Source: Dehalococcoidia bacterium
GTDB lineage: Bacteria; Chloroflexota; Dehalococcoidia; CAUJGQ01
Assembly (NCBI GenBank): GCA_035310145.1
Contig: DATGEL010000016.1
Location: forward strand, 1 to 43,758
Length of the DNA stretch: 43,758 bases
Reading direction: 5' to 3'
Of this stretch, positions 2,504-26,884 are shown one piece after another. The position numbers were made by a program, and so were the translations under genes. The notes beneath the pieces are model-generated. The model did no database searches and was not told the DNA's origin. It saw nothing but the letters and a program-made list of their open reading frames with translations. How positions within the stretch are numbered: position 1 is the first letter of the stretch; every line of letters begins with the position of its first letter.

Positions 2504-4984
2504 ATGACCCAGGCGCCGCTGGCCGGCCTGCGCGTGCTCGAGATCGGGGAGTTCGTCTCCGCCGCGTACTGCGCGAAGCTCCTGTCCGACCTCGGCGCCG
2601 AGGTGCTGAAGCTCGAGCCGCCCGACGGCGACCGCGCCCGCCGTTACGGCCCCTTCCGCGGCGGCGTGCCCGACCCGGACGCCAGCGGTCTCTTCCTCTG
2701 GCTGAACCACGGCAAACGGCTGGCGACGCTGGACCTGGCCGCACCGGACGGCCGCGACGCGTTTCACCAGCTGGCGGCTGAAGCCGATCTCGTGATCGAA
2801 AACCTCGAAGCAGCCGAGATCGCGCGCGCCGGCGCTGCCTACGAGACGCTGGCGAAGCTGCAACCGGGCCTGATCGTCACCTCGATCAGTCCGTTCGGCC
2901 GCACGGGGCCGCGGGCGCACTGGCGCGGACACGGTCTGCAGGCCGCCGCAGGCAGCAGCGTGGCGTACCGCACCGGCGACCCGGCACGCTGTCCGCTGAC
3001 CAAGCCGCTTAACGACCCGGAGTTTCTAGGCGGCGTACACGCGGCCGCGGCCACGCTGCTCGCCCTGCGCCAGCGCGAGCGCGGCGGACCGGGGCAGCAC
3101 GTGGATGTCGCGATCCAGGACGTGCTCTTCTCCGTGACCTCGGGCACGCTGCTGGTCGCCGCGATCTTCGGCGGCCGCACACCGCCCAGCCGCAGCGGGC
3201 ACCGTTATCCGGCCTTCTTCCCCTGGACGGTGCTGCCCGTCGCCGACGGCTTCATGGAGTTCGTCACCATGCAAGACCGGCAGTGGCAGGCGTTTGTCGA
3301 CGAGATCGGCTCGCCGGCCTGGGCGAGCGATCCGCGCTTCCAGAACCGCGTGACGATGACGCAGTACGCCGATGAGCTGGACGGGCTGCTGCTCGCCGCG
3401 GTGGGCCGGCGCACGCGGGCCGACCTCTGGGAAGCATGCCGCCGGCGGCGCATCTCCTTTCAGCCCGTGCACCGCACCGACGAGCTGCTGCGGGCCGACC
3501 ACCTGCGCCAGCGCGGCTTCTTCGTGCCGATCCCGGACGGAAACGGAGGCAGCGTCACCGCGCCCGGATCGCCGTTCGTGTTCGAAGGCCGGCGCGCGGC
3601 CGGCCATCCCGCGGCAGCCGTGCGCGAACCGGCCGTCGCCGCACACCCGCCAGCGAATCCGGTACGTGCGGCTGCAGCGGCGTGGACGGGGCGCGCCGAG
3701 AGGCGCCCACCTGCCGCCGACTGCAGCCCCACGGACGCCCCGCTCGCGGGCGTGCGCGTGCTCGACCTGGGCCAGGTCTGGGCGGGGCCGCTGCTGGGCC
3801 AGTATCTGTCCGACTTCGGCGCCGACGTCATCCGCGTCGAGACGGGCAAGCGGCAGGGCATGATGTCCGGCGCGGCGGCCGTGCCCACCGATCCGGCGGC
3901 GCCGGCTTCGTACAATGTGCTCTTCCGCAACCGGCGCAGCGTCAGCCTCGACCTCGAGCATCCGCGCGGACACGCGCTGTTCTTGCGGCTGACCGCCGTC
4001 AGCGATGTCGTCTTCGACAACCTCTCGCCGCGCGCCGTGAGGAAGCTGGGCATCGGCTACGAGGCGCTGCGCCGTGTCAATCCCGGCATCGTCGTCGCCT
4101 CGCTCTCCGCCGCGGGCCAGCACGGCCCCTGGGCCGACGTGCTCACCTACGGCCCCTCGCTCACCGCCCTCTACGGCATCAAGAGCCTGCTCGGCTATCC
4201 GGGCGACACGCGCATTATGGAGGACGTGGCCGACCTCGACCCCACCGCCGCCACCTACGCGCTGACCGCCATCCTCGCGGCGCTGCGCCGGCGGGAACGC
4301 TCCGGTCAAGGGACGTTCATCGACCTGGCGCAGGGCGAGGCCGGTCTCGCGTCGCTCGGCGAGGCGGCGCTGGAGTATGCGATGAACGGCGTGGTGCTGG
4401 GTCCGACCGGCAACCGCCACCGAGCGATGGCGCCGCACGGCATCTATCCCAGCGCCGGCCCTGGGGGCTCCTGGAGCGAAGCCCAGGGGAGAGCGTCGCA
4501 GACTTCAGATGACGCCTGGATCAGCATCGCGGTGGACAGCGATGCAGCCTGGCGGGCGCTCTGTGTCGTGTGCGCCGAGGAAGCGCATGCAACCGATCCG
4601 CGCTTCGCCACGCTGGCGGGCCGGCTGCGCCACGTCGAAGCGCTGGATGCGCTGACGGCCTCGTGGACGCGCCGGTTCGATGCGAGCGAGCTGAGCGAGC
4701 GGCTGCAGGCGGCCGGCGTCGCGGCTTATCCTGTCCAGGATCCCCTTGCCGCCGTGCGCGACGAACAGATCGCCTTCCGTCGCACCGCGGTGCGCGTGGC
4801 TACAGGGGCGCTCGATGCCGCGCAGGTCTACACGGGCACACCCTGGTTCCTCAGCGAGGCGCCGCCGACGATCTACGGTCCGGCGCGGCCGCTCGGCGCC
4901 GACAACGAGAGCGTGCTTCGCGGCGTGCTCGGCCTTTCAGCGGCGGAACTCACCGCCGCGATCGCCGCCGGGGCGGTAGCCTGA
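2504..4984 (+). CDS. CaiB/BaiF family (class III) CoA-transferase, complete tandem two-domain fusion
   Basis: This 826-residue protein is about twice the usual 400 residues because two CoA-transferase domains are joined. Domain 1 (about 4-380) starts PLAGLRVLEIGEFVSAAYCA and domain 2 (about 410-826) starts PLAGVRVLDLGQVWAGPLLG. Domain 1 has the catalytic-type VDVAIQDV with Asp206; domain 2 has IDLAQGEA with Glu612 at the same place. In class III enzymes the aspartate forms the acyl and CoA intermediates, so the domains may differ in activity. The ATG at 2504 is preferred over the in-frame GTG at 2477 because GGAGG lies seven bases upstream and homology starts right after it. A palindrome encoding about 15 extra residues lies in domain 2 between GIYPSAG and DDAWISIAV. 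Substrate unknown. Confidence 0.9.
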   Translation: MTQAPLAGLRVLEIGEFVSAAYCAKLLSDLGAEVLKLEPPDGDRARRYGPFRGGVPDPDASGLFLWLNHGKRLATLDLAAPDGRDAFHQLAAEADLVIENLEAAEIARAGAAYETLAKLQPGLIVTSISPFGRTGPRAHWRGHGLQAAAGSSVAYRTGDPARCPLTKPLNDPEFLGGVHAAAATLLALRQRERGGPGQHVDVAIQDVLFSVTSGTLLVAAIFGGRTPPSRSGHRYPAFFPWTVLPVADGFMEFVTMQDRQWQAFVDEIGSPAWASDPRFQNRVTMTQYADELDGLLLAAVGRRTRADLWEACRRRRISFQPVHRTDELLRADHLRQRGFFVPIPDGNGGSVTAPGSPFVFEGRRAAGHPAAAVREPAVAAHPPANPVRAAAAAWTGRAERRPPAADCSPTDAPLAGVRVLDLGQVWAGPLLGQYLSDFGADVIRVETGKRQGMMSGAAAVPTDPAAPASYNVLFRNRRSVSLDLEHPRGHALFLRLTAVSDVVFDNLSPRAVRKLGIGYEALRRVNPGIVVASLSAAGQHGPWADVLTYGPSLTALYGIKSLLGYPGDTRIMEDVADLDPTAATYALTAILAALRRRERSGQGTFIDLAQGEAGLASLGEAALEYAMNGVVLGPTGNRHRAMAPHGIYPSAGPGGSWSEAQGRASQTSDDAWISIAVDSDAAWRALCVVCAEEAHATDPRFATLAGRLRHVEALDALTASWTRRFDASELSERLQAAGVAAYPVQDPLAAVRDEQIAFRRTAVRVATGALDAAQVYTGTPWFLSEAPPTIYGPARPLGADNESVLRGVLGLSAAELTAAIAAGAVA
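4459..4488 (+). repeat. nested inverted repeat inside a CoA-transferase gene
   Basis: The outer arms CCCTGGG (4459-4465) and CCCAGGG (4482-4488) enclose a second pair, GCTC (4467-4470) and GAGC (4474-4477), around CTG. It is translated in frame as part of PGGSWSEAQGRASQTS, where relatives usually run directly from a Gly-containing turn into DDxWI. It looks like a small palindromic element inserted without breaking the reading frame. Confidence 0.55.
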
Positions 4985-22330: not shown

Positions 22331-23080
22331 TCAACCGTGGCGCAGCAGCGATTCGGCCTCCCTGAGGTCCGCGGGCGTGTCCACGTCCAGCCAGAAGGCG
22401 CCGCTCAGGTCTACCGCGTGAAACGGCTGCCGCGCCGCCACGCGCGTCATGATCGCGCTCAGCTCTGAGTCGACGCCGAGCTCGTCAATCACGGCAAACA
22501 CGTCCGGGTGGCAGCGAAAGATACCCGTGTCGATCCCGTCCCAACGGCGCAGCCGCTTGCCGAACGCCGCGACCAGGCCGTCCGGTCGCAACCGCACCCG
22601 GGTCGCGTCGGTCAGACGCGACGCCGGCAGCGGTCCCCGATCCACGCCGATGGCGAAGCGCTGTTCCGCGCCGAGCATGCGGCGGATCGCCTCCACACTC
22701 AGCAGGTGGTCGGCCATCAGCAGCAGAAAGGGCGCCTGAGCAACGGCGGCGCGGGCCGCGGCAAGCGAACTGCCGTTCGGCAAACGGTAGTCCGGATTCC
22801 AGACAACATGCAGCGACGGGCCGCCTGGCCCAAGGCCGGCAAGCGCCGCCTCGATTTCGGCGCCGCGGTAGCCGAGCACGACATACGCTTGGTGTACGCC
22901 GGCCTGCGCGAGCGCTTCCAGGGTGTAGGCGAGCAGCGGCCGGCCCAGGACGGGCGCCAGCGCCTTGGGCGCGCCGCCGCCCGCGCCGCCGAGGCGCGAG
23001 CCAAGTCCAGCGGCCAGGATCACGGCTGGAAGCGCGGGCTGCGGCGGGTCAAGCGGCGCCGGGGCGGATTCGGCCTTCAC
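22331..23080 (-). CDS. sugar/inositol-phosphate nucleotidyltransferase (CTP:inositol-1-phosphate cytidylyltransferase-like)
   Basis: This 249-residue protein has the nucleotidyltransferase core: PAVILAAGLGSRLGG (from residue 18), Lys39 in APKALAPVLGRPLL, then NGSSLAAAR and LLLMADHLL with Asp124 as metal ligand, and GIDTGIFRC. The combination of NGxS and MADHL resembles the cytidylyltransferase domain that activates inositol-1-phosphate for di-myo-inositol-phosphate or phosphoinositide synthesis. MobA- or GlmU-type enzymes usually have GD at the Asp position. It lacks the fused membrane CDP-alcohol transferase of the archaeal enzyme and none is adjacent. Other sugar-phosphate substrates are possible. 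The start GTG at 23080 has no ribosome site, but TATACT ends seven bases upstream, suggesting a leaderless mRNA. Confidence 0.75.
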   Translation of the reverse strand: MKAESAPAPLDPPQPALPAVILAAGLGSRLGGAGGGAPKALAPVLGRPLLAYTLEALAQAGVHQAYVVLGYRGAEIEAALAGLGPGGPSLHVVWNPDYRLPNGSSLAAARAAVAQAPFLLLMADHLLSVEAIRRMLGAEQRFAIGVDRGPLPASRLTDATRVRLRPDGLVAAFGKRLRRWDGIDTGIFRCHPDVFAVIDELGVDSELSAIMTRVAARQPFHAVDLSGAFWLDVDTPADLREAESLLRHG

Positions 23081-23176: not shown

Positions 23177-23659
23177 CTAGAGCACGCATTGCCCCGTGGT
23201 CGTGTCGAAGAAGAAGCCGGGCGGGCAGACGCCGGAGGCGTTCCCGGTGATTGGCACGCAGCCGTTCACCGACAGGCTGAAGGCGAATCCGAGCGGGCAG
23301 ACACCCGAGCTCACGGTTCCCGCTGGCCCCTGCGGTCCCTGAGGCCCGGCCGGGCCCTGCAGCCCTTGCGGCCCCTGCGGACCTTGCGGCCCCTGCGGTC
23401 CGGCCGCGCCTGCTGGGCCTGCCGGACCGGCCGGCCCCTCCATATTGACGTCGTACTCCGTTTGGTTCTCCGCGCAGGCGAAACCGCTCTGGGCGACACT
23501 CAGCGCCTGCGTCGAGTTGTCCGCGCACATGCGCAGCGTGCCGGCGTTGCCGCCGCTCTGCGCGTGCACAAAGCTCAGCGCCGCGAACACGGCCAGCACT
23601 ACCACCACGGCGCCCCAGCCCATCCGCTCGAGCGTCGTCACCGAGCGACTGCGAAACAT
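23177..23659 (-). CDS. collagen-like repeat membrane protein
   Basis: This 160-residue protein has a short basic cytoplasmic start, one hydrophobic helix (about 15-33) that anchors it or serves as an uncleaved signal, a first Cys-containing segment (Cys45, Cys62), then 13 uninterrupted Gly-X-Y triplets (residues 75-113) rich in GPQ and GPA. The end is a Cys-patterned domain with two similar units, [14 protein letters not shown] and [17 protein letters not shown] runs form collagen triple helices, so an extracellular trimer stalk with disulfide-stabilised ends is likely. RBS GGAGG precedes the ATG. Bacterial collagen-like proteins act in adhesion or surface structure; the partner here is unknown. 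Confidence 0.8.
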
Positions 23660-24716: not shown

Positions 24717-25145
24717 ATGGCAGAGCAGATGAAGACTCGCACGCAGCGCACGGCGCTGCTGAGGAAGCGGGCCACGGCGGCGAGCTTCGGTGTGTTGGCC
24801 GGCGCGTTTGCGCTGGTGGCCGTCTCGACGCAGCACCGAGGCCAAGCCGCCTCCTCCGCCGTCGATGCAGTGGCGAGCGCCGCGGCCGGCCAGTCAACGG
24901 CGGCAACGCTCGCCGAGTCGGAAGTTCCCGCACAAGCCGCCGCGACCGCGGCAACGACATCACCGGCCGCCAGCGCATCCGCCGGGTCCGATGAGACCCG
25001 GGCCACCACGGCAACACCCGCGTCGACTCCGGTGATCGCCGCATCCGCCGCGCAGACGCCGACTACGCAGTCGCCGGCCAGCACCGGCGGCAGGAATGTG
25101 GCCGCCGGCACGTCCAGCAGCCATGCCGCCACGCGCCAGTCGTAG
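24717..25145 (+). CDS. Ala/Ser/Thr-rich membrane-anchored protein, first gene of the ApbE operon
   Basis: This 142-residue protein has a basic N-terminus (KTRTQRTALLRKR), one membrane helix (about 19-37) and an outer tail of about 100 residues made almost only of Ala, Ser, Thr, Pro, Gln and Gly. There is no folded domain I can name. ApbE starts 15 bases downstream and the cytochrome-like gene overlaps ApbE, so the three form one operon. In ApbE operons this position usually holds the FMN-binding protein that ApbE flavinylates. No FMN-bind domain is present and the canonical D-x-x-S/T-G-A-T attachment motif is absent; the nearest string is DETRATT. The tail could be a flexible linker or glycosylated. 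GAGGTG precedes the ATG. Confidence 0.65.
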   Translation: MAEQMKTRTQRTALLRKRATAASFGVLAGAFALVAVSTQHRGQAASSAVDAVASAAAGQSTAATLAESEVPAQAAATAATTSPAASASAGSDETRATTATPASTPVIAASAAQTPTTQSPASTGGRNVAAGTSSSHAATRQS

Positions 25146-25160
25146 CCAGGAGCAGCAGCA

Positions 25161-26180
25161 ATGAACACCGATTCAGCCGGTGCGGCAGATGACCCGGCGA
25201 ACGAGTCCGCGCTCGATTCGCTGCGCGTGGTCTTCCGCGCGATGGGAACAGAGGTCTCGCTCGCCGTCTGGCCGCGGCGGGGACAGGAGGCGTCGGCCGA
25301 GGCGGCGCTCTGGGCGGAGGTCGCCCTGCTGCGCGAGGCGGATGCGTTGCTCAGCCGCTTCCTGCCGGAGAGCGAGATCAGCCGCCTCAATCGCGGCGCC
25401 GTGACACCGGTGCGAGTTTCGGCGCTCACCTTTTCTGCGATCGAAATTGCGCTGGATGCGGCGGCGGCCAGCGGCGGGCTGTTCGACCCGACCGTCTACG
25501 GCGCCCTGCTCGCCGCCGGCTACGACCGCAGCTTCGCAGATCTCGAGCAGAAACCGTCGCGGTCCATGCCGGCAGCCGCCCTGCCCCGGCAGGCGGGTCG
25601 CTGGCGCGAAGTCCTGCTCGACGAAGCCCGGGGCACGGTCACGCTGCCCAACGGCGTTGGGCTCGACCTCGGCGGCATCGCCAAGGGGTGGCTGGCCGAC
25701 CGCGTGGCCGAGAGGCTCGGTGTCTTCGGGCCGGCGCTCGTCGACATCGGCGGAGACATCGCCATGCTCGGCCTGCCGCCCGACGCCCCTGCATGGGCGA
25801 TCGACGTCGATGGACCGTTCGGAGCGGTGCTGGGCACCCTCCAGCTCGAAGGCGGGCGTGGTGTCGCCACCTCGGGCATCACACGGCGGCGCTGGCAGAC
25901 CGAGGCGGGGAGCCGCCATCACCTGATCGACCCGCGCACCGGCGCGCCGGCGCTCACCGACCTGTTAAGCGTGACGGTGGTCGCGCCGACCACCGCCGCG
26001 GCCGAGGTAGCGGCGAAGGGCGCCCTGCTGCTGGGCAGTGTCCTCGGCCTCGCGGCACTGGTTCAAGCTGCCGAACTGGGCGGATTGCTCGTGCGGCGCG
26101 ACGGCCGCGTGCTCGTGGCCGGCAGCCTGAGCTGGATCCCCGCCGGCGCAGCCCAGCAGCCCGCGGAGGTGAACGCATGA
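25161..26180 (+). CDS. apbE: FAD:protein FMN transferase (ApbE)
   Basis: This 339-residue protein has the complete ApbE pattern: AMGTEVSLAVW (27-37), SRFLPESEISRLNRG, FDPTVYGALLAAGYDRSF, the GVGLDLGGIAKGWLADRV nucleotide and Mg-binding block, LVDIGGDIAMLG, VATSGITRRRW, HHLIDPRTGAPA, and the C-terminal TVVAPTTAAAEVAAKGALLLG. ApbE splits FAD and links FMN by a phosphodiester to Thr or Ser of an extracytoplasmic redox protein. No signal peptide or lipobox is seen, although many ApbE proteins are secreted lipoproteins; it may act inside or leave by an unrecognised route. It is coupled by a four-base overlap to the ferric-reductase-like gene. AGGAG lies before the ATG. Confidence 0.93.
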   Translation: MNTDSAGAADDPANESALDSLRVVFRAMGTEVSLAVWPRRGQEASAEAALWAEVALLREADALLSRFLPESEISRLNRGAVTPVRVSALTFSAIEIALDAAAASGGLFDPTVYGALLAAGYDRSFADLEQKPSRSMPAAALPRQAGRWREVLLDEARGTVTLPNGVGLDLGGIAKGWLADRVAERLGVFGPALVDIGGDIAMLGLPPDAPAWAIDVDGPFGAVLGTLQLEGGRGVATSGITRRRWQTEAGSRHHLIDPRTGAPALTDLLSVTVVAPTTAAAEVAAKGALLLGSVLGLAALVQAAELGGLLVRRDGRVLVAGSLSWIPAGAAQQPAEVNA

Positions 26181-26884
26181 CCGCCCGAACCTGGCCCGCC
26201 CGACTGAGCGCCTGCGTTATCGCCGTGTGCACGGCTTTGGCCGGCGCCCTGATTGGGGCCGGCGCGCTCATCCTGGCCGGGCGGCTCGCTTCCAGCATCG
26301 ACCTTGCCGGCGTGCTAGGCAGCCGCCTGCCCTGGTACACGACGCGGGCGGCCGCGATCACCGCCTACCTGCTGCTCAGCGGCACGACTGTGCTCGGCCT
26401 CAGCATCTCGACGCGGGCGCTCGACCGGCTCATGAGCCGCGCCACAGCCTTCGCCCTGCACGAGTGGCTCTCGTGGCTGGCGCTGGCCTGCGTGGCGCTG
26501 CACGTTGGCGCTTTGCTCGTCGACACCTTCCAACCGTTCTCGCCAGGCGAGGTGTTGGTGCCGTTCACCAGCAGCTACCGCCAGGTGGCAACCGGCATCG
26601 GCGTACTCAGCCTTTACCTGCTGGGGACGATCACGATCAGCTTCTACCTGCGCGCGCACATCGGCCAGCGAGCCTGGCGCACCCTGCACTACGGCAGCTT
26701 CGCCCTCTACCTGCTGGCGACGTCACACGGTATCTTCTCCGGCGCGAGCCAGGATCTATCCTGGATGCGCTGGGTCTACAGCGCCAGCGCGACGGTAGTC
26801 GGGCTCTTGCTCAGTTCGCGCATCCTCGCGGGACGGCGCAGGCACACGGCCAAACGCCCCGCGCGAATCGCGTCCGCCGCCTGA
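26177..26884 (+). CDS. ferric-reductase-like transmembrane cytochrome
   Basis: This 235-residue integral membrane protein has about six helices and four histidines spaced for two b-type hemes: His95 and His109 in one helix (LHEWLSWLALACVALHV), His171 and His184 in a later one (LHYGSFALYLLATSHG). This is the FRD/NOX-type heme-binding bundle (PF01794), here without any FAD/NAD(P)H-binding domain. It overlaps the ApbE stop codon by four bases (ATGA) with GGAGG upstream. The operon therefore encodes a transmembrane electron path and a flavin-attaching enzyme, so the electron receiver is probably a flavinylated outer protein. It converges with the small zinc protein 21 bases further on. Confidence 0.87.
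   Translation: MTARTWPARLSACVIAVCTALAGALIGAGALILAGRLASSIDLAGVLGSRLPWYTTRAAAITAYLLLSGTTVLGLSISTRALDRLMSRATAFALHEWLSWLALACVALHVGALLVDTFQPFSPGEVLVPFTSSYRQVATGIGVLSLYLLGTITISFYLRAHIGQRAWRTLHYGSFALYLLATSHGIFSGASQDLSWMRWVYSASATVVGLLLSSRILAGRRRHTAKRPARIASAA

Follow-up and report, generated by a model that had tools for sequence, protein, structure and literature searches.

What receives the flavin from an ApbE flavin transferase whose operon encodes no FMN_bind protein? MsrQ-like flavinylation clusters, in which PF01794 and ApbE occur together, typically include FMN_bind (Meheust et al. 2021, PMC8238504). The question is raised here by three plus-strand genes (24717-26884) in the window, the whole stretch of 43,758 nucleotides of Dehalococcoidia DNA that was analysed, encoding a small protein with a long disordered tail (the tail protein), an ApbE and a PF01794 cytochrome. 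Comparing sequences across related loci, we arrived at the reading that the small protein serves the neighbouring ApbE as substrate, carries a C-terminal flavin on a disordered tether and acts as electron acceptor of the cytochrome, to which we give a probability of about three in four.

Architecture of the operon

The initial annotation described an operon of ApbE and ferric-reductase genes with an odd first gene, whose product it took to be an anchored Ala/Ser/Thr-rich protein without an FMN-bind domain or canonical flavinylation motif. Open reading frames, Pfam matches and a motif scan agree with this description. The genes have RBS-like spacing, and an ATGA overlap joins the last two, the ATG of gene 3 overlapping the ApbE stop codon. 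The features discussed below are as follows.

24717..25145, + strand: tail protein, 142 aa, candidate flavin carrier and proposed substrate of ApbE (open reading frame, RBS, homology, third-position GC)
24771..24827, + strand: transmembrane helix, residues 19-37 (hydropathy 1.86 over 19 residues)
24843..25130, + strand: low-complexity Ala/Ser/Thr tether, residues 43-138 (composition; unalignable between relatives)
25131..25142, + strand: terminal T-R-Q-S motif, residues 139-142, with Ser142 as predicted FMN site (alignment, family statistics)
25161..26180, + strand: ApbE flavin transferase, 339 aa, no signal peptide (Pfam ApbE E 5.7e-56; Foldseek)
25869..25922, + strand: ApbE segment T237-S238..R243-R244-W245..H253-H254, R-x-W for canonical Y-x-R (alignment to solved ApbEs)
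26177..26884, + strand: MsrQ-like/ferric-reductase-like cytochrome, 235 aa, six transmembrane helices, without FAD/NAD domain (Ferric_reduct PF01794 E 1.3e-7)
26459..26461, + strand: His95, predicted heme ligand (invariant 83/83)
26501..26503, + strand: His109, predicted heme ligand (invariant 83/83)
26687..26689, + strand: His171, predicted heme ligand (invariant 83/83)
26726..26728, + strand: His184, predicted heme ligand (invariant 83/83)

The tail protein has a cationic N-terminus upstream of its single hydrophobic helix, followed by a tail of ~100 residues containing 33 Ala, 17 Ser and 16 Thr. It matched no Pfam family above cut-off and no NCBIfam family; the canonical D-x-x-[ST]-G-A-[ST] was not found in it, and its C-terminus reads ..H-A-A-T-R-Q-S. 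GC is raised at third codon positions of the gene, and its product is 41% identical to the tail protein in the same place in a genome of the same family (G001, locus L020). Minus-strand ORFs over this gene were rejected, as homology and the higher third-position GC point to the plus strand.

The second gene product has the family signature and modelled fold of ApbE (PF02424), its model matching solved ApbE structures with Foldseek E values down to 8.5e-25, and is predicted to transfer FMN. The third, with its PF01794 domain, six transmembrane helices and four predicted heme-ligand His, is a MsrQ-like member of the FRD superfamily. The four His noted in the initial annotation do not vary across the family, and W53 and R57 are likewise invariant in 83 of 83 cytochromes. 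Six long helices make up its AlphaFold model (pLDDT 89.3), the third and fifth carrying the His pairs, and the best Foldseek matches, although weak (E 0.007 upwards), include NADPH oxidases (NOX) and STEAP2. Because the window cytochrome lacks a flavin or NAD(P)H domain, quinol is the likely donor, by analogy with MsrQ. In one distant cytochrome homologue (L086) the C-terminus is extended by a region resembling, by eye, a FAD/NAD domain.

Known ApbE substrates in the genome and its relatives

Two explanations had been offered for the missing acceptor: that it is encoded elsewhere, or that the first gene specifies a flexibly tethered flavin carrier of a type so far unrecognised. The genome check for an FMN-bind protein suggested at the time found no FMN_bind (PF04205) match at E ≤ 1 in the cluster or anywhere in the 5.3-Mb source genome (estimated 99.8% complete), and neither DUF2271 (PF10029) nor DUF3570 (PF12094) was found in this genome. 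FMN_bind was also wholly absent from 10 of 12 host genomes tested in other lineages and, in a cross-tabulation compiled by hand, from 63 of the 85 near-complete Chloroflexota that matched this ApbE strongly (cut near 1e-90). These absences weaken the first explanation.

The genome has three intact ApbEs. A fourth match, on contig C43, was rejected as a frameshifted and truncated remnant (L007 5462-5795, minus strand); it resembles the FMN_bind-associated ApbE of a same-family genome and is a decayed canonical flavinylation gene. Both types coexist in G001, where one locus holds FMN_bind, ApbE and an RnfD-like protein (L015) and another holds tail protein, ApbE and cytochrome (L020). A second cluster of the operon's kind, overlooked in the earlier reading, lies on contig C127 of the source genome, where two tail proteins ending ARTRAS flank an ApbE-cytochrome pair. 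These paralogues (L005 1840-2109, minus strand, and 4223-4534, plus strand) are 62% identical over 85 residues, and one is divergently transcribed. The third ApbE (C49, L006 6615-9034) is convergent with a 408-aa PF01794 protein bearing an extra C-terminal region, and no tail protein was found in the 16 kb around it.

A conserved C-terminal motif in the tail proteins

Also overlooked was the conserved part of the tail protein, its extreme C-terminal TRQS. In an alignment of five tails (that of the window, the two from C127, one from G001 ending RTRQS and one from G034 ending RTRSSR), the only invariant residues are one Leu, one Pro, T139, R140 and S142. Used as a protein query, the full-length low-complexity tail returned mostly composition matches in relatives, and loci were therefore gathered via ApbE and their neighbours then read. 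An ApbE of this kind was present in 238 of 400 genomes in a search of the window's phylum. The set comprised 80 named loci (the named homologues being mostly Chloroflexota), 30 and a further 80 from the window's phylum, and another 30 from the phylum to which the Actinomycetales MAG L106 belongs. From each locus that also contained an ApbE and a PF01794 gene, a single tail ORF was picked solely on its place and a transmembrane helix; once near-duplicates were dropped, 95 candidates became 82 non-redundant tails. This strict rule gave no candidate in 41 of 137 ApbE-cytochrome loci, some of which have a tail elsewhere.

The tail bodies are unalignable across the 82 loci, in contrast to their endings. 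The pattern [ST].[AGSTQV][ST] followed by 0-2 residues, first framed on the same loci in which it was first counted, ends 69 of the 82 tails, against a mean of 3.9 and a maximum of 13 in 2000 shuffles, and the ending [ST]R[AGSQ]S(R) occurs in 32 of 82 where shuffling gives 0.04. As controls, the C-termini of the adjacent ApbEs and cytochromes had such an ending in 0/82 and 2/82, respectively. When tails were aligned on the last Ser, position 0 was Ser in 73 of 75, position -3 Thr or Ser in 71 of 75, position -2 Arg in 38 and Gly in 19, and position -1 Ser, Gly or Ala in 64. Actinomycetota loci fetched later served as a hold-out of 15, leaving out four loci already seen: a narrower pattern, P2, was present in 6/15 (0.27 by shuffling) and [ST][GRHKQS][AGS][ST] near the tail end in 10/15 (1.8 by shuffling). 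Among transmembrane ORFs more than 600 nt from ApbE, only 2 of 166 had a motif ending, one being the second tail of a cluster locus.

Codons vary at all four motif positions; the conserved entity is therefore the protein. Overlap with a Shine-Dalgarno sequence was considered as the cause of the motif and rejected, given this variety and the encoding of the terminal Arg by CGN, never AGG.

Gene order, a point the initial annotation had singled out for survey, is conserved: in many Chloroflexota a gene of this type has the same ApbE and cytochrome downstream of it, as it does in loci from Actinomycetota, Planctomycetota and Bacillota. The first gene belongs to a large bacterial family, apparently not described before, of small membrane proteins that combine an anchor, a floppy tail and conserved last residues. 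No description of such proteins was found in the open-access literature searched, preprints excluded.

Relation of the tail endings to the canonical flavinylation motif

ApbE substrates bear flavin on the last residue of [S/T]-G-A-[S/T] (PMC12052999), and in alignment the tail endings have the shape of this motif. Some tails with the same neighbours carry it outright. The L106 tail ends ..PPPADTSSGAS, with the canonical core including Asp; the L209 and L244 tails end ..QTSSGAS and ..VASSGAS; and the L269 tail ends ..VATSGASGAYR, with the core close to the C-terminus. An Alicyclobacillus tail ending ..APDIITRGS keeps the canonical Asp, and in L201 the cytochrome itself ends ..QSTSGASPST. The endings grade through SGAS, SGGS, THAS, TRGS, TRAS and TRSSR (the last in Herpetosiphon, for instance), and a flavinylation site is the simplest reading of this series. 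The earlier suggestion of a flavin carrier of unrecognised type, flexibly tethered, thus gains strong comparative support at the level of sequence.

The window motif itself deviates from consensus at the Gly position, which is Arg. Replacing G by A, or A by V, in the motif was enough to cut flavinylation of the fumarate reductase studied to about half (PMC12052999). Together with the C49 ApbE-cytochrome pair, which has no tail protein nearby, this departure would suit a different role, in which the tail protein serves as a subunit for assembly or anchoring, its motif merely docks ApbE or the cytochrome, and the ApbE substrate is encoded elsewhere. We regard that as unlikely, since the substrate families searched are all absent from the genome, this position is occupied in relatives by the canonical motif itself, and the C-terminal Ser is almost always retained in the aligned tails.

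Conserved C-terminal motifs on proteins that otherwise vary are characteristic of sorting signals. The tails fit that description, so their last residues might serve in sorting, processing or degradation and have no flavin role; we consider this highly improbable, because the motif is almost limited to ApbE neighbourhoods, grades into [ST]GA[ST] and lacks the C-terminal helix of the sortase and PEP-CTERM classes.

A variant ApbE accompanies the tail proteins

Between its catalytic Ser and His segments, the window ApbE has an R-x-W segment that aligns with D-Y-E-R-Y-F of solved ApbEs. ApbEs of the R-x-W type occurred in 142 loci, with a P2 tail nearby in 76 and FMN_bind in none, while those of the Y-x-R type had three FMN_bind partners and no such tail. 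The change may concern substrate recognition. We think it probable that these loci represent a class of ApbE substrate without a flavin-binding fold, with FMN on the C-terminal Ser of an extracellular tether and a co-evolved R-x-W ApbE accepting T-R-S-S-like sequences for S-G-A-T, spread across Chloroflexota and Actinomycetota and also represented in Planctomycetota and Bacillota. Natural tail-ApbE fusions were looked for and none was found.

Neither a signal peptide nor a lipobox, by which extracytosolic ApbEs are recognised, was found in the window ApbE, and a hydrophobic stretch was present in 1 of 65 members of its clade, even though the tail is expected on the outer side of the membrane. 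Three Chloroflexota ApbEs beside FMN_bind substrates are likewise without a signal peptide, so the puzzle is general and not specific to the tails. Either flavinylation precedes export, or ApbE reaches the outside by some other route.

Topology and proposed mechanism

The cationic N-terminus of the tail protein argues for an N-in/C-out orientation. Across the family, mean net charge is +3.05 before the helix and -0.49 after it, and 73 of 82 tails obey the positive-inside rule for C-out. The Alicyclobacillus tail (L078 4300-5019) has a peptidoglycan-binding domain (PF01471, 9e-16) between the helix and its terminal DIITRGS.

We propose that ApbE would take FMN from FAD and attach it to the final Ser of the C-terminal T-R-Q-S, a putative diverged form of [S/T]-G-A-[S/T]. 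The flavin would then hang outside the membrane, on the loose tip of a disordered tether that spans ~100 residues and has a single helix as its anchor, and could work as a swinging arm. The cytochrome would pass electrons across the membrane via two b hemes, probably from quinol. At the outer heme the tethered flavin would collect these electrons and deliver them to an acceptor, possibly Fe(III), located within the cell wall or past it. Flavin attachment, the residue concerned, the direction of electron flow, donor and acceptor are all inferred. The opposite orientation, in which the signal-less ApbE flavinylates a cytosolic tail that supplies the inner heme with electrons, substituting for the NAD(P)H domain that the window cytochrome lacks, seems very improbable given the charge distribution about the helix and the peptidoglycan-binding domain of the Alicyclobacillus tail.

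Comparison with known flavinylation systems

The operon resembles MsrQ-like clusters (PMC8238504) in placing ApbE beside a six-helix, four-His, bis-heme PF01794 protein, and in the transmembrane electron transfer to a flavinylated partner proposed for both; it differs in having no FMN_bind gene, ApbE signal peptide or cytochrome NAD domain, and in having as partner a disordered tail with a variant terminal motif. Closer in layout are the FMN_bind proteins of three Chloroflexota loci (L013, L015 and L236), which also have one N-terminal helix, an Ala/Ser/Thr/Pro linker and a downstream ApbE without signal peptide. What sets them apart from the tail proteins is a folded FMN_bind domain containing D-x-x-[ST]-G-A-T, an RnfD-like partner in L013 and L015, and an ApbE segment that lacks R-x-W.

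Several precedents exist for parts of the arrangement. DUF2271 and DUF3570 are likewise substrates of 'orphan' ApbEs without FMN_bind (PMC8238504), but they are folded and their flavinylation has been demonstrated. Flavodoxin_4 and FMN_red carry flavinylation motifs outside the core fold (PMC11334425); that of FMN_red lies on an unstructured C-terminal extension, as proposed for the tails, but the extension sits on a domain whose family binds flavin non-covalently. In engineered flavin tags ApbE flavinylates a short terminal motif, and tags seven residues long perform best when placed at the N or C terminus (PMC12052999); they are man-made and canonical, whereas the tail motif is natural and in many cases has R, H, Q or K for G.

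In the 2021 survey, 4% of genomes were orphan, with ApbE and no known substrate, and unidentified substrates exist (PMC8238504). The tail family is a concrete candidate for these. It was probably missed because profile libraries are blind to a disordered tail and signal-less ApbEs were filtered out, that survey having discarded genes without a signal peptide or lipidation site (PMC8238504). If the reading is correct, it would widen the ApbE recognition motif, offer new short flavin tags and possibly orthogonal ApbEs, and define an electron carrier that is a flavin on a flexible arm, with no folded domain needed.

Other observations

In 17 of the 82 loci another transmembrane protein nearby has a strongly acidic, D/E/H-rich tail, for example L020 2753-3037 (minus strand), L017 964-1365 (minus strand), L106 57-782, L180 and L235. 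None was found beside the window operon. This companion, which we would guess may bind metal, sometimes has PepSY domains (PF03413; L014, L138 and L170), and in L223 an acidic D/E/H-rich tail is fused to the cytochrome. Elsewhere in the window, a small minus-strand protein (23177-23659) has, by eye, collagen-like Gly-Pro-Gln/Ala repeats, and its gene adjoins a nucleotidyltransferase-like gene (22331-23080).
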